NCBI GenBank assembly: GCA_023512475.1
Contig: JAILZL010000017.1
Coordinates: 1 to 59,501, forward strand
Direction: 5' to 3'
DNA: 59,501 nt
Origin: Syntrophobacterales bacterium
Lineage (GTDB): Bacteria > Desulfobacterota > Desulfobaccia > Desulfobaccales > 0-14-0-80-60-11
A program made the translations under genes and the position numbers. Shown here in pieces: positions 30,260-53,722 of this stretch (position 1 is the first letter of the stretch; each line of letters opens with the position of its first letter). The notes beneath the pieces are model-generated. The model made no database searches. It worked only from the letters and a program-made list of their open reading frames with translations, and was not told where the DNA came from.

Positions 30260-31045
30260 TTACGAGGCCGCGGCGGCCGGGCCGGCGGCTTTGCGGAACA
30301 CCACCCAGAGATTGGGGGAAAAGCGCGGGGTGTCGATCTCCAGGCGGTCCACCGCCAGGGCTGCCAGGTTGTTCAGGGCGCACCAGAGCACCAGCAGGGG
30401 GAGGAGCAGGCCCGCCAGGGCTGTCCCCAGGACGCCGCGGCGGCTGAGGCGGGCCAGCCCGGAGAAGACCCAGTTGTGCACCAGTTGCACCACTGCAGTA
30501 CCCACCCCGCCCTGGTAGCGCAGCGTCTCCACTTCCAACCCCGCCCGGGCCAGCAGTTCCTTCAGCCCGTAAGGCGAAAAACGGAAGAAATCATAAGGGC
30601 CCACGTGCACATTATAGATGAAGGGCACGGAGAGGATGCCGGTGCCGCCCGGCCTCAGGACCCGGGAGATCTCCTGCAGCACCGTGTCCGGCTGATTGAC
30701 ATGCTCCAGGACCTGGGAGCACAGGACCGCATCGAAGCTGCCGTCGGCAAAGGGCAGGCGCCGGGCGTCGCCATAGACCTCGGGACGGGCCTGGAAATCC
30801 TGGAGGGCCTGGGTCACCGGGTAATCCAGGCCGATATAGTGGCGGACCCGGGGCAGGTGCGGCCGGTAGGGCTGGTTGCCGCAGCCCACATCCAGAAGCC
30901 GGCCCTGAAGCCGGTGGCCGTCGGCCCGCAGGTGCCGCCGGAAATAGTGGGAGGGCAGGAATTGAAAATGGAGCACATTGGCACTGAGTTCCCGGCCGCA
31001 CAGCCGGCCGTAGAAGTGGGTCATCAGGCGGGCGAGTTTCCGCAT
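30260..31045 (-). CDS. SAM-dependent methyltransferase
   Basis: 261 residues, class I fold. SAM-binding motif I LLDVGCGNQPY, acidic loop IGLDYP, motif SFDAVLCSQVLEHV and RVLRPGGTGILSVPF. The C-terminal ~60 residues contain a hydrophobic stretch (LLLPLLVLWCALNNLAALA), so it may associate with the membrane. Last gene of the polysaccharide operon, 3 bases after asnB. Probably methylates a sugar or lipid-linked glycan, but the acceptor is unknown. Confidence 0.87.
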   Translation of the reverse strand: MRKLARLMTHFYGRLCGRELSANVLHFQFLPSHYFRRHLRADGHRLQGRLLDVGCGNQPYRPHLPRVRHYIGLDYPVTQALQDFQARPEVYGDARRLPFADGSFDAVLCSQVLEHVNQPDTVLQEISRVLRPGGTGILSVPFIYNVHVGPYDFFRFSPYGLKELLARAGLEVETLRYQGGVGTAVVQLVHNWVFSGLARLSRRGVLGTALAGLLLPLLVLWCALNNLAALAVDRLEIDTPRFSPNLWVVFRKAAGPAAAAS

Positions 31046-31048
31046 CGG

Positions 31049-32983
31049 TCATCCTCCCAGGCTCTGCCGGCACCATTCATCCAGGACCAGCAGGCGCCAG
31101 AGGTCTTCGCTGAGGTCCTGCTGCCCCCCCAGAAAGCGCCGGAGGAGGGCCGCCACCGCCTCGGGTTGGCAGAGCCGATACAGCGGCGCCTCCTTAGGCA
31201 GCAGGCGCGCGGTGAGGATGGCGGCCACATCCCCTTTGAGCCAGCGGCGCAGGGGCATCTGGAAGCCGTTTTTGGGCCGCTCCACAAACCCGGGGCCCAG
31301 GTCTGCGGCCAGCAGGTGCCGGAGGAGCACCTTTTGGCGGCGGCCGTCATACTTGAGGGCCTGGGGCAGCCCCAGGGCCAGCTCCACCAGGCGGTGGTCC
31401 AACAGGGGACAGCGCAGCTCCAGGGAGGCCGCCATGGAGGCCCGGTCGGCCTTGACCAGGATATCCTCCGGCAGGTAGGTGAGGAGGTCCACATACTGCA
31501 GGCGGGTGAGGAAATCCCGGGGGCCTTCCTCCCAGGCGGCGGTGAAATGGGCATGGAGCAGGTCCTGATCCCCAGGCGCCGGCCGCAGTTCCGGGCGCAC
31601 CAGACCCAGGGCCTGATCCCGGGAGACGATGGCCCGGTAGAGGTGCCCGCCGGCCGCGGCCCGTTGCCAGAAGCTCTTGCCCCGCATCCGGGCGGGCCAG
31701 GCCAGGGCCAGCAGGCCGAAGAGGGGGCGGCGCAGCCCCTCCGGCACCGGGCCCCAGAGGTGTTCCAGGCGGGCGGCGTGATGGTAGCGGCGGTAGCCCG
31801 CCAGGATTTCATCCCCGCCGTCCCCTGAGAGGGCTACGGTCACCTGTCGCCGGGCCAGCCGGGAGACAATGAGCGTGGGCAGGGCCGAGGAGTCGGCGAA
31901 GGGCTCGTCAAACTGGCGCACCACCTCGGGCAGGAGCGCCAGGGCATCGGGGCTGACCACCTCTTCGGTGTGCTCGGTGCGATAGCGGGTGGCCACCTGC
32001 CGGGCCCACGGCAGTTCGCTGGCCTCGGCCTCCGGAAAGCCGATGGCGAAGGTCCTAAGCGGCCCGGCCCCCAGGCGGTGCATCTGCCGCACCACCAGAG
32101 TGGAATCCAACCCTCCCGAGGAGAAGGCGCCCAGAGGCACATCGCTCACCAGGCGCAGGCGCACCGCGGCCGTGAGCTCCGCCTCGAACTCCTCCTGCCA
32201 GTCCTTCCAGGACCCCTCGGGCCCGGCCGCGACCGGCTGCCAGTAGCGCCGCAGGCGGAGTTCCCCGGGCCGGTCCAGCTCCACCCAGGCCAAGTGGGCC
32301 GGGGGCAGTTTGGCCAGGCCGCGGAAGATGGTGCGGGGGGAGGGGATATAGCCATACAGGAGGTATTGGCTCAGGGCCACCGGATCCAGCTCCCGGGGCA
32401 CTTCCGGGTCCGCCAGGAGGGCCTTGAGCTCCGAGGCAAACTGGAATCCCGCCGGAGAGGCATAATAGTACAGGGGTTTTTTCCCCAGCCGGTCCCGGGC
32501 CAGAAACAGGCGGCGCGCCTTGAGGTCCAGGATGGCGAAGGCGAACATGCCCCGCAGATGGCGGAGGCACTCCTCCCCCCAGCGCACAAAGGCCCACAGC
32601 AGCACCTCCGTGTCGGAGTTGGCGGTGCGGAAGGTGACGCCCTCGGCGGCCAGCTGGCGCCGCAGCTCCTGGTAATTGTAGATTTCGCCGTTGAAGCTGA
32701 TCCAGTAGCGCCCCTGGGCCGCCATGGGTTGGGCCGCAGCCTCGGACAGGTCCAGCACCGCCAGGCGCCGGTGCCCCAGGAACAGATCCCAGGGACCGGC
32801 CGGGGGCTCCGGCAGCCCGTCCCCATCCCGGCGGAGGCATACCGCCCCGGAAGCGGAGCAGGCCAGGAGATAGCCGCCGGCGTCCGGGCCACGATGCCGC
32901 AGGGTGTCGGTCTGGCGGCGGCACAGGCCGAAGGATACCGGCCCGGCCCCCGGGAGGTTTACGCGGCCGAATATACCGCACAT
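31049..32983 (-). CDS. asnB: Asparagine synthase (glutamine-hydrolysing) family, AsnB
   Basis: 644 residues. N-terminal glutamine amidotransferase domain beginning MCGIFG, with Cys2 as nucleophile, and SFNGEIYNYQELR. C-terminal synthetase domain with the PP-loop FSSGGLDSTLV and SGDGGDEILAGYRRY. Start set by the obligatory MCG N-terminus and a GGAGG site; it overlaps the 3' end of the upstream gene by 25 bases. In polysaccharide clusters such enzymes are thought to amidate uronic acids or amino-acid decorations; position supports that over amino-acid metabolism, but it is inference. Confidence 0.93.
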   Translation of the reverse strand: MCGIFGRVNLPGAGPVSFGLCRRQTDTLRHRGPDAGGYLLACSASGAVCLRRDGDGLPEPPAGPWDLFLGHRRLAVLDLSEAAAQPMAAQGRYWISFNGEIYNYQELRRQLAAEGVTFRTANSDTEVLLWAFVRWGEECLRHLRGMFAFAILDLKARRLFLARDRLGKKPLYYYASPAGFQFASELKALLADPEVPRELDPVALSQYLLYGYIPSPRTIFRGLAKLPPAHLAWVELDRPGELRLRRYWQPVAAGPEGSWKDWQEEFEAELTAAVRLRLVSDVPLGAFSSGGLDSTLVVRQMHRLGAGPLRTFAIGFPEAEASELPWARQVATRYRTEHTEEVVSPDALALLPEVVRQFDEPFADSSALPTLIVSRLARRQVTVALSGDGGDEILAGYRRYHHAARLEHLWGPVPEGLRRPLFGLLALAWPARMRGKSFWQRAAAGGHLYRAIVSRDQALGLVRPELRPAPGDQDLLHAHFTAAWEEGPRDFLTRLQYVDLLTYLPEDILVKADRASMAASLELRCPLLDHRLVELALGLPQALKYDGRRQKVLLRHLLAADLGPGFVERPKNGFQMPLRRWLKGDVAAILTARLLPKEAPLYRLCQPEAVAALLRRFLGGQQDLSEDLWRLLVLDEWCRQSLGG

Positions 32984-34515
32984 GGCTGGGCCTCCAGGGG
33001 CATCTCCGGCGCCGGCAGACCCCGGTGCTGGAGGATCTCCTGGCGCCGGGTCCAGAAACCGCTCTCCTCCTGGTGCAGGGCCACCAGGGCCCGGAATTCC
33101 GCCAGGACCTCCGGGGCCAGTGCCGGGCGGAGGTCGTTCTGTTCCTCCGGGTCTTGGTGAAGGTCGTAGATTTCCAGCTCCCCGTCCCAGCGCTCCAGGA
33201 TCTTGAGGCCCTGATCCAGGAAGAGGGCGAACCGGGAGGGGGAGAAGGTCTCCCGGGTCAGGGCGGCCTGCCGGGCCCGATACTGCCACTGGGTCAGCCA
33301 CATCTCCGGATACAGGAGCTGGGCCAGGGCGCTTTCCCGGGAGGGCGCGCCCAGGAGGGAATGGGAGGTCGCCGGGTGGGGGAGGGGACTGCCCACCAGA
33401 TCCAGCACCGTGGCGTAAATGTCCGTCAGCGAGGCCAGGCGGTCATCAGTACCCGGCGGCGCCACGTCCCGAGGATAGCGGATGATGAGGGGCACCCAGA
33501 TAAGCTCGTTATACAGGGAGAGGATGTGGGTGTAATGCCCCTTTTCGCCCAGGTGCTCGCCGTGGTCGGAGGTGATGATCACCACGGTATTCTCAAAGGC
33601 GGGGGACTGGCGCAGGGCCTCCCACAGCCGGCCCAGGACCTCATCCTGATACAGAATCTCATCATCGTACAGGTTCCGGTAGGTCTCCACCATCCGGGCC
33701 GTTTCGGGGGTCTTAGGGCGGCGGTAGAAGCGCTGGGGGTCCACCCAGGCCCGGTCCCGCCAGCGGGAGAAGCGCCGCCGGCGCAGGGGCGGCCGGTAGG
33801 TCTGGTGCGCCTCCATCAGGTTGATGAAGAGGAAGTACGGCTGACCGGCTTCCTGGGTGAGACGGGGGAGCATCCGGCGGACCCAGGCCACGGTCTTTTC
33901 CGTGTAGCCGGCGGATTTGGCCACCGGGCTGGGGTGCCAGAAGTCCCGGAGCAGCCGCCGGGTCAGCTGCCGGGCGGTGCGGCAAAGCGGCCCCACTCCG
34001 CCGCCCTCCTTCAGGTAGGTGAAGGTGAGGGCCACCGCCTCCCGGAGGTTCACCGCCTGTTTCAGGCGAGCGCCCAGCTCTCCGCCGTTCTCCCGGGGCC
34101 CGCCGGTGAGGTTGTGGAAAAACCGGTCCAGATCGTGGCGGCCGAAGTCGGTGAATTCATCAAAGGCACCGCACAGGCCGGTGGCCGGGCTCACCAGGCC
34201 GTTGGAGGAGATGCCCAGGGTGCGGTAGCCGGCCATTTTGAGCACGGTGGTGAGATGATGCAGGTTGTCCTCCAGGAGGAAGCTGCCCTCACAGGCCCCA
34301 TGCTGGCTGGGATAGAGGCCGGTGAACAGGGAGGCGTGGGAGGGCACGGTCCAGCACCCCGGGGCGTAGCAGCGGGTATAGACCCGGCAGTCCTGTGCCA
34401 GGCGCTCCAGGTAGGGGGAGGTGGGCCGGGGGTAGCCGTAGAGGGACAGGTGCCGGGCGCCGGTGGTGTCCAGCACAATGAGCACGATATGGGGCATCCG
34501 GGCGGTCAGGGTCAT
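32959..34515 (-). CDS. Alkaline-phosphatase/sulfatase superfamily protein with Thr at the nucleophile position
   Basis: 518 residues. Metal-binding N-terminal motif IVLDTTGARHLSLYGY (Asp16), active-site segment WTVPSHASLFTG, and C-terminal SDHGEHLGEKG. Arylsulfatases need Cys or Ser in C/S-x-P-x-R for formylglycine; here the equivalent residue is Thr56 in TVPSH and the Arg is missing, so a classical FGly sulfatase is unlikely. Thr is the nucleophile in related phosphotransferases. No signal peptide or membrane helix is visible, so it may act in the cytoplasm. Starts inside the flippase stop codon (ATGA overlap). Confidence 0.88.
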   Translation of the reverse strand: MTLTARMPHIVLIVLDTTGARHLSLYGYPRPTSPYLERLAQDCRVYTRCYAPGCWTVPSHASLFTGLYPSQHGACEGSFLLEDNLHHLTTVLKMAGYRTLGISSNGLVSPATGLCGAFDEFTDFGRHDLDRFFHNLTGGPRENGGELGARLKQAVNLREAVALTFTYLKEGGGVGPLCRTARQLTRRLLRDFWHPSPVAKSAGYTEKTVAWVRRMLPRLTQEAGQPYFLFINLMEAHQTYRPPLRRRRFSRWRDRAWVDPQRFYRRPKTPETARMVETYRNLYDDEILYQDEVLGRLWEALRQSPAFENTVVIITSDHGEHLGEKGHYTHILSLYNELIWVPLIIRYPRDVAPPGTDDRLASLTDIYATVLDLVGSPLPHPATSHSLLGAPSRESALAQLLYPEMWLTQWQYRARQAALTRETFSPSRFALFLDQGLKILERWDGELEIYDLHQDPEEQNDLRPALAPEVLAEFRALVALHQEESGFWTRRQEILQHRGLPAPEMPLEAQPCAVYSAA

Positions 34516-35987
34516 GAGGTCCCCTCCTGTACAGGCCGTTGTAACAGCAGCATCATTTCCTGCAGCACCGGTCGGGCGGTCAGGCCCAGATAGGTGCAGC
34601 CAAAAAGCAGGGCGGCGGCGACAGGTCCCAGGGGGTTCAGGGACAGGCCGAAGATGCCGGCGGCCACGGCGCCCCCCAGGTGGGCCGGGAGAACGTCCCG
34701 GGCGAAGATGGTGAGCCCCAGACGCCGGTGCACCGCCACACTCATCCCCAGGTTGACCCCCACCAGCCAGGCGGCTTTGGCCGCGGCCAAGCCGGTGAGG
34801 CCGCCCAGGGCGGCCCCCACCCCCAAGAGGGGCAGGCCTGCCAGGGCCGCCAGGGCCAGGATACGGGTCAGCGCCACCTGGTGGCCGGTCATCGCCAGGA
34901 GAAACCCCACCGAGCCGCAGGCCACGTTCACCAGCTGGGCCAGGGCCAGAAGCCGCAGGGCCGTGGCTCCGGCCTCAAAGCCCGGGCCGAACCAGCCCAG
35001 CAGCCGGGGGGCCAGAAGCAGGCACCCCAGGGTCAGGGGCAGGGCCAGGTAGTAGGTCCAGCGGGAGGCGGCCCGCCCCAGGCCCTCCAACTGGCGACGG
35101 TCCCCCTGCCCGTGGAGGCGGCTGAACAGGGGCGGCAGCACCGCATTGATGGCGATGAGGGGCAGGCTCACCAGCAGGGCGGTCTTGTTGGCGGCCTCAA
35201 AGTATGCCACCTGGGCCGGCGGCTGAAACCACCCCAGCAGCAGGCTGTCCAGGGAGCCGAAGGCCAGCCATACCAGAGCGCTCAGAAACAAGGGGGTGCT
35301 GTACCGCAGGAGCTCCCGCAGGGGTTCAGGGGGGCAGGCGCCGGCAGGACGCTGCCGCAGGCCCTGCAGAAGCCGGGCCACGATCAGGGAGCCCGAGGCC
35401 AGGTGGCTGAGGAGGAGGGCCAGCCCCAGGACGGCCACCGCCCTGGCCCCCGGTGCTCCCGCCAGGGCGCAGATGAAGAGCAGGAAGAGGAGGGGAAAGA
35501 CCCCGTCCTGACTCAGTACCACCCAGCGGGGTCCCTGGAGTGCCCGCAGGGCTTCGGCCAAGACCCCCAGCGCCGCGGTCAGCGGCAGAAGCACGCACAC
35601 CCAGGGCAGCAGGGGCAGGAGCTTAGGTGCCTGAAAACGCCCGGCCAGCCAGTCGCCGGCCAGCCAGAGCCCGCCTGCGGTGAGGGCCCCCAGGCCGCCC
35701 ACGAGCGCCAGGGTCGGGAGCAGCAAGGCCAGGAGACGGTCACGGCCGGCCTCGGGACCGCCGGCGGCACAAAACCGCAGAATCCCGGTGTCCAGCCCCA
35801 GGCGGCAGATGACCGCCAGGGTGGTGAGGAGGTAGAGCCCCACAGTATAGGTGCCCATGGCCTCCGCCCCATACAGCCGGGCCAGCAGGATCAGGGAATA
35901 ATACCCCAGCGGCAGACTGAGGACCTTGACCGTCAGCACCAGCAATGAGTCCACCGCCAGGGTGCGTAACAGGGGAGACGGCGCCAT
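34512..35987 (-). CDS. Wzx-type polysaccharide flippase (MATE/MOP superfamily)
   Basis: 491 residues, almost entirely hydrophobic, with about 12-14 membrane helices. The N-terminal SLPLGYYSLILLARLYGAEAMGTYTVGLYLL is typical of lipid-linked oligosaccharide flippases. Likely moves a lipid-linked repeat unit across the inner membrane. Its start directly abuts the upstream stop and its stop overlaps the next start, so it is translationally coupled on both sides. No Wzy-type polymerase was recognised in the cluster. Confidence 0.87.
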   Translation of the reverse strand: MAPSPLLRTLAVDSLLVLTVKVLSLPLGYYSLILLARLYGAEAMGTYTVGLYLLTTLAVICRLGLDTGILRFCAAGGPEAGRDRLLALLLPTLALVGGLGALTAGGLWLAGDWLAGRFQAPKLLPLLPWVCVLLPLTAALGVLAEALRALQGPRWVVLSQDGVFPLLFLLFICALAGAPGARAVAVLGLALLLSHLASGSLIVARLLQGLRQRPAGACPPEPLRELLRYSTPLFLSALVWLAFGSLDSLLLGWFQPPAQVAYFEAANKTALLVSLPLIAINAVLPPLFSRLHGQGDRRQLEGLGRAASRWTYYLALPLTLGCLLLAPRLLGWFGPGFEAGATALRLLALAQLVNVACGSVGFLLAMTGHQVALTRILALAALAGLPLLGVGAALGGLTGLAAAKAAWLVGVNLGMSVAVHRRLGLTIFARDVLPAHLGGAVAAGIFGLSLNPLGPVAAALLFGCTYLGLTARPVLQEMMLLLQRPVQEGTS

Positions 35988-36662
35988 CTAAAAATATCCC
36001 ATGGCCCTGAGGCGCTTCATGATCTCTTCTTTTTTGGGGTTGCGCCCCGCCCGTTCGGCGCCCCCGGTGATGCCCCGCTGGGTGCAGGGCGCACAGCCCA
36101 GGCTGCGGTAGCCCTGGCGGTACAGGGAGCAGAAGGGCACCTCATGGGCCCGCTGATAGGCCCAGATGTCCAGCTCGGTGAAGTGCAGGATGGGGTGCAC
36201 CCGCACGTGCTCCGGCGCCTGACGCGGGGCGAAATAGGCCTCCTGGCGCCGGTCGGGCTGCTCGTCCCAGCGCATGCCGGTGATGAGGGCCTGCCAGCCG
36301 TGCTCCTCAATGGCCCGGGCGATCACCCGGGTCTTGAGCAGGGTACAGCACTCCTCCTGGTCGGCGGCAATCCGGATGGTGCGGATGGCCTCCTCGTTGC
36401 GGGCAATGATGAGGTTCAGGTCCCATTCCCGGGCCAGCCGGTCCCTAAAGGCATAGATCTCCGGGAATTTGACGCTGGTGTCGATGTTCAGCACCGGGAT
36501 GGGCACCCGGCCGCCCCCGATCTCTTTGAGCAGATGCAGGATGGTGGTGGAGTCCTTGCCCCCGGTCCAGGCCAGGGCGATGGCGTCCCCGAAACGGGTG
36601 AGGGCCTCTTCCAGGACCTCCCGGCTGAGCCGGATCTTTTCCTCCAGACCGTTGGTATTCAT
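35988..36662 (-). CDS. APS/PAPS-reductase-like PP-loop protein with Fe-S cysteine motif
   Basis: 224 residues. PP-loop TGGKDST at 33-39; NIDTSVKFPEIYAFRDR and ITGMRWDEQ shared with CysH/CysD proteins. Cys105-Cys106 and Cys190-x-x-Cys193 reproduce the CC-x(~80)-CxxC pattern that binds a 4Fe-4S cluster in assimilatory APS reductases. The protein ends at 224 and lacks the C-terminal ECG(I/L)H-type catalytic cysteine, so the standard thiosulfonate mechanism cannot be assumed. It lies 14 bases after a UDP-sulfoquinovose synthase gene, whose enzyme needs sulfite; a role in sulfur supply for it is inferred. CysD-like activity is the alternative. Confidence 0.85.
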   Translation of the reverse strand: MNTNGLEEKIRLSREVLEEALTRFGDAIALAWTGGKDSTTILHLLKEIGGGRVPIPVLNIDTSVKFPEIYAFRDRLAREWDLNLIIARNEEAIRTIRIAADQEECCTLLKTRVIARAIEEHGWQALITGMRWDEQPDRRQEAYFAPRQAPEHVRVHPILHFTELDIWAYQRAHEVPFCSLYRQGYRSLGCAPCTQRGITGGAERAGRNPKKEEIMKRLRAMGYF

Positions 36663-36676
36663 GGGCGCTCCTTTGC

Positions 36677-37882
36677 TTACAGATTAGTGACCAGCCGGAG
36701 AGGCTGGGGTGCTGCCGCGGCCTGCTGCCCCGCCGGCCGCCAGGTGATGCGGGGCAGGATATACTCCGGCCGGATCCTCTCCCGGTGGCGCTGCACCATC
36801 TGCAGCATCTCCACCAGCACCTCCCGGGTCAGGTAGTGGGGCTGGAGGCCCAAGGAGAGGAGGCCGGTGTGGGCGGGATTGTAATAGTGTTCCTCGGCCT
36901 CCTGCCGGGGGTTGGGCAGGCGCCGGATGGCCACCTCCAGGCCCAGGTCCCGGGCCGCCTCCTGGACCCGCCGGGCCAGCTCCAGGACCGTGAAGGTCTC
37001 CACAAACTGATTGAAGACCCGGTACTGGCCCGGGGCCGCGGGCTGGGTCAGGGCCAGGGTGACGCAGGCCAGGGTGTCCTTGAGGTGGAGGTAGCCCCGG
37101 GTCTGGCCCCCCCGCCCGTAGACGGTGAGGGGGACGCCCGCCACGGCCTGCACCAGGAAGCGGTTGAGCACCGTGCCGAAGATGTCGTCGTAATTGAAGA
37201 TGGTGGCCAGGCGCTCCTCCCCCTCCTCCAGGCCGCTGCTCAGCCCGTACACCGGACCCTGGTTGAGGTCCGTGACCCGCAGGTTCCAGATGCGGGCGTA
37301 AAAATACAGCATGTCCCCGTCCTGGGATTTGGTGAGGTGGTAGAGGGACCCGGGGGTTTTGGGATAGAGGAAGGTGTGCCGGCGGCCTTTGTACTCCACC
37401 TCGAGGTAGCCCTCCTCGATGTCGATGTTGGGGGTGCCGTACACCCCCATGGTCCCCAGCTTGACGATGTGGCAGTCCGGCTGGAATTCCGCCACCGTGT
37501 GGATGAGGTTCAGGGTGGACACCAGGTTGTTGGTCAGGGTGAACAGGGCGCTCTCCCGGTCCCGCATGGAATAGGGGGCCGAGGGTTGTTCGGCGTAGTG
37601 CACCACCCCCTCGGGGCCGAAGTCCTGAAAGACCCGGGAGAGGAAGGGGTAATCGCAGACATCCCCCACCGCCACCTGGATGGTGTGGCCGGAGAGGGCC
37701 CGCCAGAGCTCGGCCCGCTGATGCAGGTTGGGCACCGGCACCAGGGGCTCGCAGTTGAGGGAGGTGCATATGCGTCGCCGGAAATAGTTGTCCACCACCA
37801 TGACCTCGTGGCCGGCGGCCGTCAGATGCATGGCCGTGGGCCACCCCAGATAGCCGTCGCCGCCCAAAACCAAAATCCGCAT
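36677..37882 (-). CDS. sqdB: UDP-sulfoquinovose synthase (SQD1/SqdB family)
   Basis: Makes UDP-sulfoquinovose from UDP-glucose and sulfite using bound NAD+. 401 residues, short-chain dehydrogenase fold. GGDGYLGW at 7-14, EQPSAPYSM at 98-106, Thr144 in LGTMG followed by YGTPNIDIEEGYL, Tyr181-x3-Lys185, DLNQGPVYG, VFNQFVETF near 290, and EEHYYN at 330-335. These are SQD1 hallmarks, and Thr/Tyr/Lys fall almost exactly where the plant enzyme has its catalytic residues (Thr145, Tyr182, Lys186), so I prefer this over a general epimerase. No SqdX/SQD2 glycosyltransferase is adjacent, and the operon is a surface-polysaccharide operon. Confidence 0.92.
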   Translation of the reverse strand: MRILVLGGDGYLGWPTAMHLTAAGHEVMVVDNYFRRRICTSLNCEPLVPVPNLHQRAELWRALSGHTIQVAVGDVCDYPFLSRVFQDFGPEGVVHYAEQPSAPYSMRDRESALFTLTNNLVSTLNLIHTVAEFQPDCHIVKLGTMGVYGTPNIDIEEGYLEVEYKGRRHTFLYPKTPGSLYHLTKSQDGDMLYFYARIWNLRVTDLNQGPVYGLSSGLEEGEERLATIFNYDDIFGTVLNRFLVQAVAGVPLTVYGRGGQTRGYLHLKDTLACVTLALTQPAAPGQYRVFNQFVETFTVLELARRVQEAARDLGLEVAIRRLPNPRQEAEEHYYNPAHTGLLSLGLQPHYLTREVLVEMLQMVQRHRERIRPEYILPRITWRPAGQQAAAAPQPLRLVTNL

Positions 37883-37885
37883 GGC

Positions 37886-39016
37886 TCACCTCCGCCCCGT
37901 GGCCTGCAGGACGGGCGGGACCTGAAGGCGCGGCACCTCCTGGGGGGTCCCGAGACCCCAGGGGGCGAGCTCCCGGGACACTTCCGGCAGCACCTCGTTC
38001 TCCCGGAGGTAGTGCTTGATCTGCTCCACGCTCAGGGGCTTTTCCCGGGAGGAGACATACGCCCGGGGCACCGCCCGGGGAAAGACCTCCCCCGGGTAGG
38101 AGTACTCAATTTTCTGGTAGAAGTTGCGCATGGCCGGCAGGATGACGAACATCCTCTCCAGCTCCACCGCCCGGCCGGTCTCCTCCTGGCTCATGAGTTC
38201 CTCGTAGAGCTTCTCCCCCGAGCGGGCGCCGATGAACCGGATGCCCAGATCGTCGGGGTCATAGCCGTAGACCGGGGCCAGAAGCTCGATCATGGCCTGG
38301 GCCAGATCCAGGATGCGCATCACCGGCATCTTGGTCACCAGGACCTCGCCGCCGCAGGCCAGCACCGCGGCCTCCAGGACCAGGCGGGCCGCCTCCTGCA
38401 GGGTCATGAAGAAGCGGGTCATGTGGACGTCTGTCACCGTCACCGGCTGGCCCCGGCGGATCTGCTCGGCGAAGATGGGCACCACCGAGCCCCGGGAGCC
38501 GATGACGTTGCCGAAGCGGACGCTGGAAAAGACCTGGCGGCCGTTGGGGTTGACGATGTTGGCCGCGGTCATGAGGCGCTCCCCCATGAGCTTGGAGGTG
38601 CCCATGACGTTGGTGGGGTTCACCGCCTTGTCGGAGCTGGTGAAGATCACCCGGGGGACCTTGTGGGCCAGGGCCGCCTGGATGACGTTTTTCACCCCCA
38701 GGATGTTGGTCTGCACCACATCGAAGGGGTTGTATTCCGACAGGGTGACGTGCTTGTAGGCTGCCACGTGGAAGATCAGGTCCACGCCGGGGCAGAGATT
38801 CTCCAGCTTGCGGCCGTCCCGCACATCCCCCAGGTAGGCCGTGAGGCGGCCGTCGGTGCCGTAGGCCTCCCGGAGGAGGAAAAGCTCCGTTTCGTTATTG
38901 TCCACCGCCCGGATCTCCGCCGGCTCCAGTGCCAGGAGCTGCCGCACCAGCTCCTGCCCCACCGAGCCGGCCGCACCGGTGATGAGAATGGTCTTGCGGG
39001 CAAAATGCTCTTTCAT
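37886..39016 (-). CDS. CapD-like UDP-sugar 4,6-dehydratase/epimerase
   Basis: 376 residues, extended SDR of the short CapD/FlaA1/WbjB group. Rossmann motif TGAAGSVGQE, AAYKHV-LSEYNP, and TSSDKAVNPTNVMGTSK, where Met replaces the usual catalytic Tyr as in inverting 4,6-dehydratases. No membrane domain, so not the large WbpM type. Likely converts UDP-GlcNAc to a 4-keto-6-deoxy sugar precursor. Ends 3 bases before sqdB. Confidence 0.9.
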   Translation of the reverse strand: MKEHFARKTILITGAAGSVGQELVRQLLALEPAEIRAVDNNETELFLLREAYGTDGRLTAYLGDVRDGRKLENLCPGVDLIFHVAAYKHVTLSEYNPFDVVQTNILGVKNVIQAALAHKVPRVIFTSSDKAVNPTNVMGTSKLMGERLMTAANIVNPNGRQVFSSVRFGNVIGSRGSVVPIFAEQIRRGQPVTVTDVHMTRFFMTLQEAARLVLEAAVLACGGEVLVTKMPVMRILDLAQAMIELLAPVYGYDPDDLGIRFIGARSGEKLYEELMSQEETGRAVELERMFVILPAMRNFYQKIEYSYPGEVFPRAVPRAYVSSREKPLSVEQIKHYLRENEVLPEVSRELAPWGLGTPQEVPRLQVPPVLQATGRR

Positions 39017-39057
39017 GGCTCCACCCGATCGGTCGTTGAAATCACCCGTGGAGGACC

Positions 39058-39078
39058 GTCCCCTGCTGTTTTGGGGAC
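39058..39078 (-). other. Intercistronic hairpin between wzc and the CapD-like gene
   Basis: GTCCCC / GGGGAC, a 6-bp stem with a 9-base loop in the only sizeable gap (69 bases) of the first part of the operon. May tune transcript stability or downstream expression; there is no strong T-run on the minus strand. Confidence 0.35.
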
Positions 39079-39085
39079 CGGCGGC

Positions 39086-41371
39086 TCAGCGGCCGGCCGA
39101 GGCCCGGGTCTCCCCCGGTGAGTCACCATAGTAAAGGTTGTAGTAGCCCTGGTGGTAGTGGCCGTTTCGCCCCAGGCCGTTTGGCTGCACCTGGTTGAGC
39201 ACCAGCCCCAGGAGGGGGGCCTGCGCCCGGGCGAAGAGCTGCCGGGCCAGGCGTCCGGAGGCCCGGGAGGTGCCTTGATGTTTGACCACCAGAAGGACCC
39301 CGTCCGCCAGCGCAGCCACCACCCGGGCGTCGCTGAACCCCAGAACCGGCGGGGTGTCCAGAAGGAGGTGGTGGTATTCCTGCTGCAGCTGGGCCAGCAG
39401 GGTGCGGAAGCGGGGGGATTGGAGCAGTTCCGCCGGATTGGGCGGCACCGGCCCCGCGGGCACGAACCAGAGGTTCTCCACCGGGGTGGGGAGGATGATC
39501 TCCTCCAGGGCGGCACTGCCCGTGAGGTAGTTGGTGAGGCCCGGCTGGGAGGGCAGATTGAAGGCCTGATGCAGGCGGGGCCGCCTAAGGTCGCAGTCGA
39601 GCAGGATGGTGCGCCGCTGCCCCAGGGCCAGGGAGGCCGCCAGGTTCAGGGAGATGGTGGACTTGCCCTCCCGGGGGTTGGGGCTGGTGATGACCAGGGT
39701 CCGGGGCGGCTGCCCGGAGGCCGACAGCATCAGGGAGGTGCGGAGATGGCGCACCGCCTCGCTCACAGGGGAGCGGGGCTGCTCCACCACCACGAGATCC
39801 GCCTGACCCTCCGGTTCTCCCGGGGGGAAGGGGCTGCGGAAGAAGGGCAGGTGGGCCAGGAGGCGGTCCGTGAGGCCCGGTCCCGGCAGGGCCTTCTCCC
39901 CCGGCGCCAGCGGCACCACCCCTAGGATGGGCGTCTGGCAGATGCGCTCGGCCTCCTCCGAGGTCTTCAGGGTGTCATCCAGGTATTCCGCCAGGAAGGC
40001 GGCGCCGATACCACCCCCCAGACCGATGACCCCGGCCAGGGCCAGGAAGAGGAGGGTTTTGGGGAAATGGGGTTCCACCGGCAGATCCGCCGGGTCAATG
40101 ACGGCCACGTTGCTGGCCACCATGGTGCTGGCCACCGTGGTCTCCCCCATGCGGGCCAGCAGGGCCTGGTAGAGCTTTTCGGTGGTCTGGGTGTCCCGTT
40201 TGAGCATCTGGAAGTCGATGAGGCTGTCCTGCAGGTGGGCCAGCTGCTGCTTGTGGGTCTCAAAGGCCTCGCTGAGGAGCTTCTCGGCCCGGGAGGCCGC
40301 CTCATAGTCGGCCCGGGCGCTCTCCTGCAGGCGCTTCACCTCCGCCGCCAGGCGGCTGCTCAGTTCCTGGAGCTTGGCGTTTTCGGCCTGCATCTCAGGA
40401 TGGCCGGGGAGATAAATCCGGGCCAGGCTGGCCACCTTGGCATTCTGGGCCACGTACTCCTGCCGCAGCTGGGCGATGAGGGGGTGGTTGGTGATGGGGG
40501 AGGCGTCGGGCCCCTTCTCCTTGAGCTGCCGGTAGATGGCCTCCTTGGCCAGCCGCTCGGACTGGGCCTTGGTGAGCAGCCCCCCCAGCTCCACGTATTT
40601 CTGGAACAGCACCGTGTCCTTGCCCCCCAGATCCTCCATGACAAAGATATCGGCCTTGCGGCTGTAGTCGAAGAGCTTCCGGGTGGAGGCCTGCAGACGC
40701 TGGCCCATCTGCTCCAGCTGCTTCTCCAGCCACTCCCGGACGATCACAAAGGATTGGCTGCGGCTGTCAATGGCCAGCTGCACATACTCCCGGGGCAGGG
40801 CGTTGGCCACTTTCTGGGCCAGGGACTGGTCGCTGGACAGAAAGGAGACCTCCACCAGAAAGGAGTCTTTGACAGGCTTGATCTCCAGCTTCTTCAGGAA
40901 CAGGTCGATGAGGTCGTTTTTGCGTTTTTCCGGGGTGAGATCCGGTTGTCGGCTGACCTCCTGAAAGTCCGGATGGTCGGCCAGGTTCAGGGATTCGATG
41001 AGGCGCCAGGCCAGGGCCCGGCTGGCCAGGATCCTGTTCTGGGTTTCCTGGAATTTGCTGAGGTCCGCCCCGCCCCGGATGGCGGCCAGCGGATCATTGT
41101 CCCCCAGCTGGGGGCCGGGATTGTCCTGGGTGATCTGGATGACGGTGCTGGCCCGGTACACCGGGGTGACCACCAGGCAGAAGATCCCGGTGAGGAGGAG
41201 GACCCCGGCCAGGGTGCCCAAAAGCCACCACTTGCGGGAGCGGAGGATGCCCAGGTAATCCCGGAAGGTGAGGGTCTCCTGGGAGAGGAGGTCGGGGTAA
41301 TATTCCATCTCCCGGGCGGACGGGACCCCGGGGGTGGGGATCGCCACAGGCGAGCGGTTATCCTGTAACAT
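39086..41371 (-). CDS. wzc: Wzc-type polysaccharide co-polymerase with BY-kinase domain
   Basis: Controls chain length and export of a surface polysaccharide. 761 residues. Membrane helix around residue 50-70 after LGILRSRKWW, periplasmic Wzz and coiled-coil region (about 75-430), second helix near 435-460 (TLLFLALAGVIGLGGGIGAAF), then a cytoplasmic tyrosine kinase: Walker A SPNPREGKSTIS, A' LLDCDLRRP, B LLLDTPPVLGFSD. A C-terminal Tyr cluster (GHYHQGYYNLYYGD) is the expected autophosphorylation site. Start chosen at ATG ending 41371; the upstream open part (41 codons) overlaps wza and is not native. Confidence 0.92.
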   Translation of the reverse strand: MLQDNRSPVAIPTPGVPSAREMEYYPDLLSQETLTFRDYLGILRSRKWWLLGTLAGVLLLTGIFCLVVTPVYRASTVIQITQDNPGPQLGDNDPLAAIRGGADLSKFQETQNRILASRALAWRLIESLNLADHPDFQEVSRQPDLTPEKRKNDLIDLFLKKLEIKPVKDSFLVEVSFLSSDQSLAQKVANALPREYVQLAIDSRSQSFVIVREWLEKQLEQMGQRLQASTRKLFDYSRKADIFVMEDLGGKDTVLFQKYVELGGLLTKAQSERLAKEAIYRQLKEKGPDASPITNHPLIAQLRQEYVAQNAKVASLARIYLPGHPEMQAENAKLQELSSRLAAEVKRLQESARADYEAASRAEKLLSEAFETHKQQLAHLQDSLIDFQMLKRDTQTTEKLYQALLARMGETTVASTMVASNVAVIDPADLPVEPHFPKTLLFLALAGVIGLGGGIGAAFLAEYLDDTLKTSEEAERICQTPILGVVPLAPGEKALPGPGLTDRLLAHLPFFRSPFPPGEPEGQADLVVVEQPRSPVSEAVRHLRTSLMLSASGQPPRTLVITSPNPREGKSTISLNLAASLALGQRRTILLDCDLRRPRLHQAFNLPSQPGLTNYLTGSAALEEIILPTPVENLWFVPAGPVPPNPAELLQSPRFRTLLAQLQQEYHHLLLDTPPVLGFSDARVVAALADGVLLVVKHQGTSRASGRLARQLFARAQAPLLGLVLNQVQPNGLGRNGHYHQGYYNLYYGDSPGETRASAGR

Positions 41372-41393
41372 GGCTTTTTCCTCTGCGAAGCTT

Positions 41394-42449
41394 TCAGTTG
41401 GCGAACCGGTAGGCGCCGCTGTAGGTCCCGGGCAGGAGCTCCTTGAAGATGAAGAGCCCTTTGCGCAGGGCGCTTTCCCCCACCACCACCACATCGTTGT
41501 CCTTGAGGGGGATGTCCTCCTCCTGGCGGTTGAGGATGCGCTTCAGGTCCGCGGCCAGCTGGATGGCGTTGCCTTTATCATCCCGGCGGGTGACGCTCAC
41601 CCGGGAGGTGCCCAGAACCGGATCCAGCCCCCCGGCCAGGGCCACCGCCTGGCTGACGGTGAGGTTGTCCTTCACCGTGACGCTGCCGGGCCGGCGCACC
41701 CCGCCCAGCACATAGGCATTGCCGGCGAAGGGGACATGGATGACATCCCCGTGGCGGATGGGAAGGTTGAGGGAGGTCTCGCCACTGAGGAGGCGCTTCA
41801 GATCCACCACGATGGTCTCGGCCCGGGGGGAGAAGGGCGGCGGGGTGCCCCGGTCCTCCCGGGGGTCCTGCCGCCGGATGATGTGCACCACATCCCCGGC
41901 CTTGGCGGCCCCGGGCTTGTCCTGCAGCCCCCCGGCCAGGGCCAGCATCTCCAGCAGGGTGCGGGGTCCGATCATTTCATAGGCGCCGGGTTTGTCCACC
42001 GCGCCGGTGATGGCCACCCGCTGGTGGCGGAACTCCTTGACGGACACGGTGATCTGGGGGTTGCGGAGGTACTGGGAGCCAAAGGCCGCGGCCAGCCGTT
42101 TCTCGATGGCTTGGGGAGTCTGTCCGGCCACCTGCACGTCGCCCACCAGGGGCAGGCTGATTTTGCCGTCGCCGGTGACCCGGACGGTGCGGTTGAGGTT
42201 GTCCTGGCCGAAGACCACCACCTCCAGGAGGTCTTCGGGGCCCACTTCGTAGTCCCGGCGGCTCTGGGGCGCCACCGCCCCGGCCTGGGTGAGGAGCTGG
42301 TGCTGCAGCTGCTGCCGGGAGCGGCTGTCGCTCTCCACCTGGGCCACCAGGGCCGCGGGCGGCACCGTGGCCGTCGTGCCGCAGCCCCACAACACCCCGG
42401 CCAGCAGGGCACCGACAAGGGCGCTCCGGAAAGAGACTGACATGGTCAT
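41394..42449 (-). CDS. wza: Wza-type polysaccharide export outer-membrane lipoprotein
   Basis: Outer-membrane exit channel subunit. 351 residues. Lipoprotein signal with lipobox LWGC (Cys23). Poly_export domain starting YEVGPEDLLEVVVFGQDNL and two SLBB-type beta-grasp domains (VAITGAVDKPGAYEMIG and YVLGGVRRPGSVTVKDNLT). First gene of the minus-strand operon. The start at 42449 follows TAGGACTCGGCC; an ATG two codons inside is possible. Partner of the Wzc-type kinase 22 bases downstream. Confidence 0.92.
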   Translation of the reverse strand: MTMSVSFRSALVGALLAGVLWGCGTTATVPPAALVAQVESDSRSRQQLQHQLLTQAGAVAPQSRRDYEVGPEDLLEVVVFGQDNLNRTVRVTGDGKISLPLVGDVQVAGQTPQAIEKRLAAAFGSQYLRNPQITVSVKEFRHQRVAITGAVDKPGAYEMIGPRTLLEMLALAGGLQDKPGAAKAGDVVHIIRRQDPREDRGTPPPFSPRAETIVVDLKRLLSGETSLNLPIRHGDVIHVPFAGNAYVLGGVRRPGSVTVKDNLTVSQAVALAGGLDPVLGTSRVSVTRRDDKGNAIQLAADLKRILNRQEEDIPLKDNDVVVVGESALRKGLFIFKELLPGTYSGAYRFAN

Positions 42450-52084: not shown

Positions 52085-53722
52085 ATGGTCAGTCAGGGTG
52101 ACATAACGTCCATGAAGGCGTTCGCGAAGCCGGCGTGGTGGCCGGAACTGCTCCTGGCGGCGGTGCTGGCAGCGGCATCGCTCTACCATCTGGGCACGTA
52201 TCCGGCCCTCTGGTGGGATGAGGCCATCTTTTCCGAGACCGCGGCCAACCTGGCGGTGCACGGCCGCTATGCCTTTACGGTCCAAAGTCCGGGCCAGCTT
52301 TCCGATCTGGATTATCGCATCAGCGTCGGCCCCACCGTCATCCTGCCGGTGGCCTTGGCCTACCGACTCTTCGGGGTCGGTGTGGAGGCGGGGCGGCTGG
52401 TGGCGGCCGGCTTCCTTCTCCTGGCCTTCGCCGCCGTGTACCTGGCGGTGCGCCGGCTTTGGGGGCGGGCCCCGGCGCTGACGGCCGTCGTCCTGACCCT
52501 GGCGGCTACGGATGTCCTCTATTGGGGCCGGTCGGTGCTGGGCGATATCCCGGCTTTGGCCCTCTTTCTTTTGGGCCTCCGGTTCCTGTTCCCGGCCCTG
52601 GAGGCGTCGGCGGCGGGGCCCCTCTTCCTCGGGGGCCTGCTTCTGGGGCTGGCGGTCAACGCCAAGGAGTTTTACGGCCTGGCGGTGCTGCCCCCGGTGC
52701 TCCTCTGGGCGGCAGGACACCGCCGGGAACCCCGCCGGCTGCTGGTGGGGGTTCTGAGCCTGGGGGCCGGGGTGGGTCTCCCCCTGCTGGGCTACCTCCT
52801 CCTCAAGGCGGCCATTCTCGGGAGCATCTCCGCGGCGCTGTGGCATTTCTGGGAACAGAAGGCCCTGCTGCGGCACGAATTCTTCACCCCCCTCACCATC
52901 GGCCGGGTTTATCCCGAGAGCCTCGCTTACCTGGCGGGCCATCCCCTCTTTTGGCTGGGGGCGGCCGGGTCCTTCTTCCTCTGGCGCCGGGAAGGCCTGT
53001 CCGCCGGGGGGCGCCTGTGGCTGATGCAATGGGCTCTTTGGAGCCTCATGTACCTCACCGCGGTCTATTGGCAGCGCTTTGCTCTGCCGGGCCTGTTTCT
53101 GGCCGCCGGACCTGCGGCCTGGCTGCTGGTGCGCCTGGCCCGGACGCTTCTGGCCCCGCTGGCCCGGAGGACCCGGGCCCTGGCCGCCGGGGTGGTGGCC
53201 GGGTTTGTGCTCCTGACCTTCCCCCTCTCCGGCGTGGACATCCTGACGGCTGTGGTTCGCACCCAAAGCAGCGCCCACCACAAGCTGCTGGAGTTTTTGC
53301 AGGCCCGCATTCCCTGCGATTGCCTCATCGAAACCCCGGAGTATGAGCTGGTCTTTCTCACGGATGAGCACCGCATCCACCTGATGCCGGCCTTCTTTTT
53401 CGTGGAGTCCACCCCCGAGCGGGTGGTGCTCCTCAATCCCCGGGGCCAGGAGTATGATTTCAACCGCACCGGGGCCGATGTGCTCATTTTGGGGAGTTTC
53501 GGCAAGAGCGTCTTCCGCCAGGTGTATCCGCCCGCCCGGATCAGCACGAACTGGCGCAAGGTGGCCCAGGTGGATTTTTACGACATCTACGTGCGCCGGG
53601 GCCGCGAGCAGGCGGTCCTGAAGCGTGGCGGCCCGATGATGGCCAGGGGGCAGTCGTCGGGTTCTTCCCCGACCGCCGGCGCAGCCCATGTCTCCGCCTC
53701 GGATCATCCGTTCCCTCACTGA
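52085..53722 (+). CDS. GT39/ArnT-like membrane glycosyltransferase
   Basis: 545 residues with about 11 membrane helices and a soluble C-terminal region (from about 395). N-terminal LGTYPALWWDEAIFSETA gives the acidic motif of the GT-C fold that uses polyprenyl-phosphate sugars at the periplasmic face. A DIPALALFLLGLRFL segment also fits GT39/ArnT-like proteins. Acceptor unknown (protein, lipid A or glycan). GAGG precedes the ATG; an in-frame ATG at 52112 is possible. The last 35 bases overlap the ATP-grasp gene in another frame. Confidence 0.85.
   Translation: MVSQGDITSMKAFAKPAWWPELLLAAVLAAASLYHLGTYPALWWDEAIFSETAANLAVHGRYAFTVQSPGQLSDLDYRISVGPTVILPVALAYRLFGVGVEAGRLVAAGFLLLAFAAVYLAVRRLWGRAPALTAVVLTLAATDVLYWGRSVLGDIPALALFLLGLRFLFPALEASAAGPLFLGGLLLGLAVNAKEFYGLAVLPPVLLWAAGHRREPRRLLVGVLSLGAGVGLPLLGYLLLKAAILGSISAALWHFWEQKALLRHEFFTPLTIGRVYPESLAYLAGHPLFWLGAAGSFFLWRREGLSAGGRLWLMQWALWSLMYLTAVYWQRFALPGLFLAAGPAAWLLVRLARTLLAPLARRTRALAAGVVAGFVLLTFPLSGVDILTAVVRTQSSAHHKLLEFLQARIPCDCLIETPEYELVFLTDEHRIHLMPAFFFVESTPERVVLLNPRGQEYDFNRTGADVLILGSFGKSVFRQVYPPARISTNWRKVAQVDFYDIYVRRGREQAVLKRGGPMMARGQSSGSSPTAGAAHVSASDHPFPH

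Follow-up and report, generated by a model that had tools for sequence, protein, structure and literature searches.

Do two neighbouring genes, one for an SqdB-type protein (36677-37882, minus strand) and one for a PP-loop protein (35988-36662, minus strand), form a unit in which the second protein makes sulfite for the first? This question is raised by a stretch of 59,501 nucleotides from a Syntrophobacterales bacterium, here called the window, for which the initial annotation had proposed such an arrangement in the service of a surface glycan. Both ORFs have been confirmed, as has the gap of 14 bases by which the SqdB-type ORF precedes the other.

Gene content of the operon

The two genes are part of a series of nine, all on the minus strand and separated by short gaps or none (30260-42449). 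From its upstream end, the series encodes a Wza-type outer-membrane polysaccharide export protein (Poly_export, SLBB; 41394-42449; PF02563 86 bits, PF10531 68 bits), a chain-length regulator and autokinase of the Wzc/EpsF-EpsG type (39086-41371; PF13807 and PF02706; TIGR01005 294 bits; TIGR01007 157 bits, the last above its cut-off), and a soluble nucleotide-sugar 4,6-dehydratase of the PglF/WbpM type, a Polysacc_synt_2 SDR (37886-39016; PF02719 330 bits). Then follow the SqdB-type SDR of 401 amino acids, a member of a clade with proline at position 101 (Pro101 clade) and predicted to be a UDP-sulfoquinovose synthase or a close variant, and the PP-loop protein of 224 amino acids (PF01507 146 bits), which carries GGKDS, CC and CxxC motifs and a CysD-like C-terminus and is a predicted adenylyltransferase with an Fe-S site. 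Downstream of these are encoded a Wzx-type polysaccharide flippase (34512-35987; PF01943 71 bits), a "sulfatase-like" protein of the alkaline-phosphatase (AP) superfamily with threonine at the formylglycine position (CWTVPSHASLFTG; 32959-34515; PF00884 149 bits), an AsnB-type glutamine-dependent amidotransferase of polysaccharide loci (31049-32983; PF00733 305 bits; TIGR03108 549 bits, below its cut-off), and a SAM-dependent methyltransferase (30260-31045; PF08241 75 bits).

It had been noted earlier that no SqdX/SQD2 transferase is nearby, and this holds true; the Pfam search has found no polymer-building glycosyltransferase of any kind among the nine operon genes. The sole glycosyltransferase-like gene seen near the operon encodes a membrane protein of the PMT_2 family (52112-53722, plus strand; PF13231, 43 bits). 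Scans for promoters and terminators gave no signal exceeding chance. The product of the operon is probably an exported surface polysaccharide, although the missing glycosyltransferase weighs against a polymer. That the SqdB-type enzyme serves an exported surface glycan and not sulfolipid is supported.

The SqdB-type protein and its regular partner

In a search of the PDB, residues 2-387 of the SqdB-type protein align with the structure of Arabidopsis SQD1 (1qrr) at 455 bits, and as the next PDB family reaches only 49 bits, this full-length match indicates that the protein is not an ordinary epimerase. It is 50% identical to SQD1 and scores 439.5 bits with the NCBIfam model for UDP-sulfoquinovose synthase (NF041015), below the curated cut-off of 575. 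The initial annotation had credited it with all hallmarks of the family, which stands only in part: in the alignment (SQD1 numbering), the triad Thr145/Tyr182/Lys186 as well as His96, Met146 and His183 are kept, but Arg101 is replaced by proline and Glu148 by valine. Val148 was considered as a disabling change and dropped, since the SqdB of S. meliloti (L184), which lacks Pro101, has the same valine, so that this residue is little informative. In Agl3, alanine variants at His95, Arg101, Met145, Tyr182 or Lys186 are inactive (PMC4388408), and as the exchange R101A kills Agl3 and proline occupies this position in the window protein and its whole clade, the product may not be UDP-sulfoquinovose. 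Proline is found there also in homologues that score 558-573 bits, slightly below the cut-off of NF041015. In the tree (48 rows, unrooted), 11 Arg-bearing rows, among them SQD1, the S. meliloti SqdB and a Pseudonocardia protein, are split from 37 Pro-bearing rows with moderate branch support (80/84). The check by tree and homology that had been suggested thus does not place the protein among ordinary epimerases, yet it falls into a diverged clade in which an active-site arginine is replaced. Sulfoquinovose is its likely product, with a real caveat at Arg101. One genome (G004) has two distinct SqdB paralogues within 5.5 kb (L060:8403-13941), one beside a PglF-type SDR and the other beside apparent genes of nonulosonic-acid synthesis.

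The steady partner of SqdB is the PglF-type 4,6-dehydratase encoded upstream, not the PP-loop protein. When an SDR with at least 53% identity to the product of 37886-39016, encoded on the same strand and directly upstream of SqdB, is counted as partner, 18 of the 24 loci that could be tested in the window's Pro101 clade have the pair, and these represent nine families, against none of 10 further Pro loci and none of 10 Arg101 loci (Fisher p 0.0027, which is indicative only because the rows are related). Two of the 18 loci (L069 and L075) are near-identical and should be taken as one. Their SqdB contigs (G005:C59 and G027:C18) belong to MAGs of two families, which points to transfer or a binning error. 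The motif SDK...Mx3K has been listed for PglF/WbpM-type UDP-GlcNAc 4,6-dehydratases (PMC8987622) and is present in the operon SDR, the substrate of which may well be of the UDP-GlcNAc type.

The search for the SqdB/PP-loop pair across genomes did not bear out a general pairing: among 59 related genomes, the two genes are adjacent only in three of a single genus (G000, G001, G002), and in G003, G011 and G021 they lie on separate contigs. Throughout the phylum (297 genomes), the PP-loop gene occurs in 10 genomes, SqdB in 26 and both in four, which are the three of the window's genus and G160, again with different contigs. The window's family (22 genomes) has the PP-loop gene in nine genomes and SqdB in 10, and the six with both, versus about four expected, are near chance. 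Only one of 80 loci from other genomes, in an actinomycete (L088), combines the two outside the genus, with an SqdB of the Arg101 type about 5 kb off. In a sister genus (G003, L059), the same chromosomal place holds Wza-Wzc-SDR-SqdB-Wzx-AsnB-methyltransferase without a PP-loop or sulfatase-like gene, G011 (L061) has Wza-Wzc-SDR-SqdB alone, and G014 (L048) has Wza-Wzc-PP-loop-Wzx-sulfatase without SDR or SqdB. A second PP-loop copy in the window's own genome (G000:C41:10246-10920, L006), 70% identical to the first, lies far from SqdB. This copy is found beside a shortened sulfatase-like ORF near sucCD, and its counterparts in G001 and G002 adjoin longer sulfatase-like genes.

The PP-loop protein, its partner and the supply of sulfite

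The PP-loop protein had been described as an Fe-S protein with a CC...CxxC pattern and as a sulfite-making relative of APS reductases. The PF01507 domain, the CC (105-106) and the CxxC (190-193) are indeed there, but some CysD-type proteins encoded beside CysN have CC and CxxC as well (e.g. G054_CysD_CC, L220), and the pattern is thus not specific for APS reductases. By sequence criteria, the protein is instead an ATP-using relative of ATP sulfurylase. Its PP motif is intact, with TGGKDS versus SFSMED in the CysH of G054, and the C-terminal catalytic cysteine (ECGLH) that is found in the CysH proteins of E. coli and G054 is absent from all rows of the short clade. In the CysH proteins compared, the motif reads SFSMED or is unmatched, and ECGLH is present; the compared CysD proteins have SIGKDS and a tail similar to that of the window protein. 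GKDS, CC, CxxC and a KRLRAMGYF-type C-terminus occur in 29 of 29 aligned family members, and in the tree, the reference branches of which are long, the family is split from CysH with full support and lies nearer to CysD. All NCBIfam scores remain below the respective cut-offs (CysD 143 vs 195 bits; CysH NF002537 121 vs 154 and TIGR00434 99 vs 165). The AlphaFold model (pLDDT 89.6) matches APS/PAPS reductases with Z 20-25, CysD with 21.9 and FAD synthase with 21.7, and with matches so nearly equal the fold alone is not decisive. CysD and FAD synthase are adenylyltransferases, and this is also the probable function of the window protein, together with an Fe-S site. There is no CysN partner beside its gene, viral contigs contain no relatives, and the one PADLOC match, to BrxP, was weak (43 bits), with DndC and SspD unmatched. 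What speaks against this view of the PP-loop protein is a small Fe-S APS reductase that, according to work cited in PMC6286981, exists in M. jannaschii. More distant relatives, those of the long clade, mostly lack the four cysteines. Some of about 265 amino acids are encoded in Nitrospirota between sensor kinase-like and sigma-54 response-regulator-like genes (L119-L146). These neighbours presumably resemble prsK/prsR of exosortase loci.

The gene that recurs beside the PP-loop gene encodes not SqdB but an AP-superfamily sulfatase-like protein. In only 14 of 47 short-clade loci, though, an AP-superfamily ORF is found within 6 kb of the PP-loop gene (12 recognised with an HMM of the partner proteins, L086 and L108 with Pfam), and these loci come from Desulfobacterota, Ammonifex, Nitrospirota, Aenigmatarchaeota, Altiarchaeales and Hydrothermarchaeota. 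A large part of the short-clade loci without such a neighbour are actinobacterial and have another context in common. In Actinomycetota (L087-L102, L104), the PP-loop gene regularly follows an ABC_ATPase-class gene (PF09818), about 2 kb from where that gene starts, and no sulfatase-like gene is present. The two partners are also found fused in one frame, as Sulfatase (PF00884, 15-330) and PAPS_reduct (564-730) in a Nitrospira MAG (L103:4920-7193, plus strand), and as Phosphodiest (PF01663, 22-240) and PAPS_reduct (297-462) in a Hydrothermarchaeota MAG (L108:1113-2582, plus strand). In an alignment with 5g2v, the sulfatase-like protein of the window has threonine at the formylglycine position, where type I sulfatases have cysteine or serine, and is therefore probably no classical sulfatase; related partner proteins have threonine there too. 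As the steady partner of the PP-loop protein is sulfatase-like, a two-gene unit for sulfur supply is unsupported.

In dissimilatory sulfate reduction, sulfite is formed by AprAB. AprA has been found in 15 of 15 and Sat and DsrA in nine of nine genomes tested, in each case including the window's genome, so that sulfite is already supplied in this sulfate reducer. The two PP-loop copies are the only PF01507 proteins of that genome, and five related genomes with SqdB (G004, G018, G022, G024, G027) have no PF01507 protein at all. Given this and the presence of Sat, AprA and DsrA, AprAB is the simplest source of sulfite. With an adjacency confined to one genus, sulfite probably from elsewhere and a PP-loop protein that differs from APS reductases in its sequence marks, the supply module that had been proposed is not sustained.

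Competing readings and known systems

The reading that accounts for these observations, and that we hold to be rather probable, is that the operon builds and exports a surface polysaccharide for which the PglF-type dehydratase and the SqdB-type SDR, as a conserved pair, would supply nucleotide sugars. The dehydratase would give a 4-keto-6-deoxy-HexNAc intermediate, and SqdB would most likely turn UDP-glucose and sulfite into UDP-sulfoquinovose, with the sulfite coming from the general Sat/AprAB pathway and not from the PP-loop neighbour. The PP-loop protein, as a CysD-like adenylyltransferase that uses ATP and probably has an Fe-S site, would carry out with the Thr-type AP-superfamily protein (32959-34515) a separable tailoring step on surface glycans, and the window's genus would have added this pair to an older operon. 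The genes, their order, homology, motifs and distribution and the presence of Sat, AprA and DsrA are observed, while all reactions, the glycan and the origin of the sulfite are inferred from them. It is improbable, in comparison, that the PP-loop protein is APS reductase-like and provides its SqdB neighbour with sulfite for making a sulfonated glycan. The 14-base gap and the occurrence of the pair side by side in three genomes of a single genus would fit, as would CC and CxxC, known from Fe-S APS reductases, and APS/PAPS reductases as top structural matches, but the adjacency occurs nowhere else among the examined loci, both genes are present in only four of 297 phylum genomes, and the intact ATP motif, the absent catalytic cysteine and the placement on the CysD side speak against a reductase, as do the presence of AprA, Sat and DsrA and the SqdB genomes without a PF01507 protein.

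More weight, though still clearly less than even, has to be given to the alternative that the Pro101 clade no longer makes UDP-sulfoquinovose and is a related SDR for another nucleotide sugar, such as a 5,6-dehydratase or one with a 4-keto product, which might work together with the PglF-type dehydratase. The proline in place of an arginine that Agl3 cannot do without and that SQD1 and S. meliloti SqdB retain argues for it, and so do the separate clade, the regular pairing with a PglF-type SDR and scores below the equivalog cut-off; the 50% identity to SQD1, the kept triad, Met146, His96 and His183, the proline in homologues with near-cut-off scores of 558-573 bits, and the abundant sulfite that Sat and AprA lead one to expect in these cells argue against it. 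On the side of the PP-loop protein, CysD-like motifs and the recurrent AP-superfamily neighbours and fusions would also agree with an ATP sulfurylase that gives APS to the Thr-type AP protein as an APS-dependent sulfotransferase, so that the glycan would also be O-sulfated. As there is no CysN partner and APS is already made by Sat, this is rather unlikely, and we know of no AP-superfamily APS sulfotransferase.

Two things are still new here: the Pro101 SqdB clade together with its PglF-type partner, and the PP-loop/AP-superfamily pair, including its fused forms. It can be proposed tentatively, as a possibility short of an expectation, that these are two unrecognised glycan modules: one of Pro101 SqdB and PglF-type dehydratase, in at least nine bacterial families, for a sulfonated or related sugar of exported polysaccharides, and one of a CysD-like Fe-S PP-loop protein and a Thr-type AP enzyme, in bacteria and archaea and sometimes fused, that would first activate a group and then attach it to surface glycans. 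If the Pro101 clade makes UDP-sulfoquinovose, exported polysaccharides of many sulfate-reducing bacteria would contain a sulfonated sugar, and anoxic sediments would have a source of sulfoquinovose beyond sulfolipid; if it makes something else, the automatic annotation as UDP-sulfoquinovose synthase misleads. The PP-loop/AP-superfamily pair, with its natural fusions, is a clear lead to a new glycan-tailoring reaction. To our knowledge, a role of sulfonated sugars in surface glycans is known mainly from the N-glycans of Sulfolobus, and in the literature covered, which excludes most subscription papers, no report was found that places sulfoquinovose in a capsule, O-antigen or exopolysaccharide of bacteria.

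Like SQD1 and the SqdB of S. meliloti, the window protein has full-length homology, the SDR triad and the GTMG-x-YG and YHLxK motifs, but it differs from them in having proline for Arg101, in being encoded in a surface-glycan operon with a PglF-type SDR, and in lacking an adjacent sulfolipid glycosyltransferase. Agl3 of Sulfolobus acidocaldarius is likewise an SqdB-type enzyme for a surface glycan (an N-glycan) and not for sulfolipid, but Agl3 needs Arg101 and serves archaeal N-glycosylation, whereas the window has Wza/Wzc export. The PP-loop protein shares its fold, CC and CxxC with CysH (APS/PAPS reductase), from which it is distant in the tree, keeping the ATP motif and lacking the ECGLH cysteine. 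With CysD it shares GKDS and a C-terminal GY(F/M), and it is 45% identical to a CC/CxxC CysD encoded beside CysN, but it is shorter, has no CysN, and is found in glycan loci with an AP-superfamily partner.
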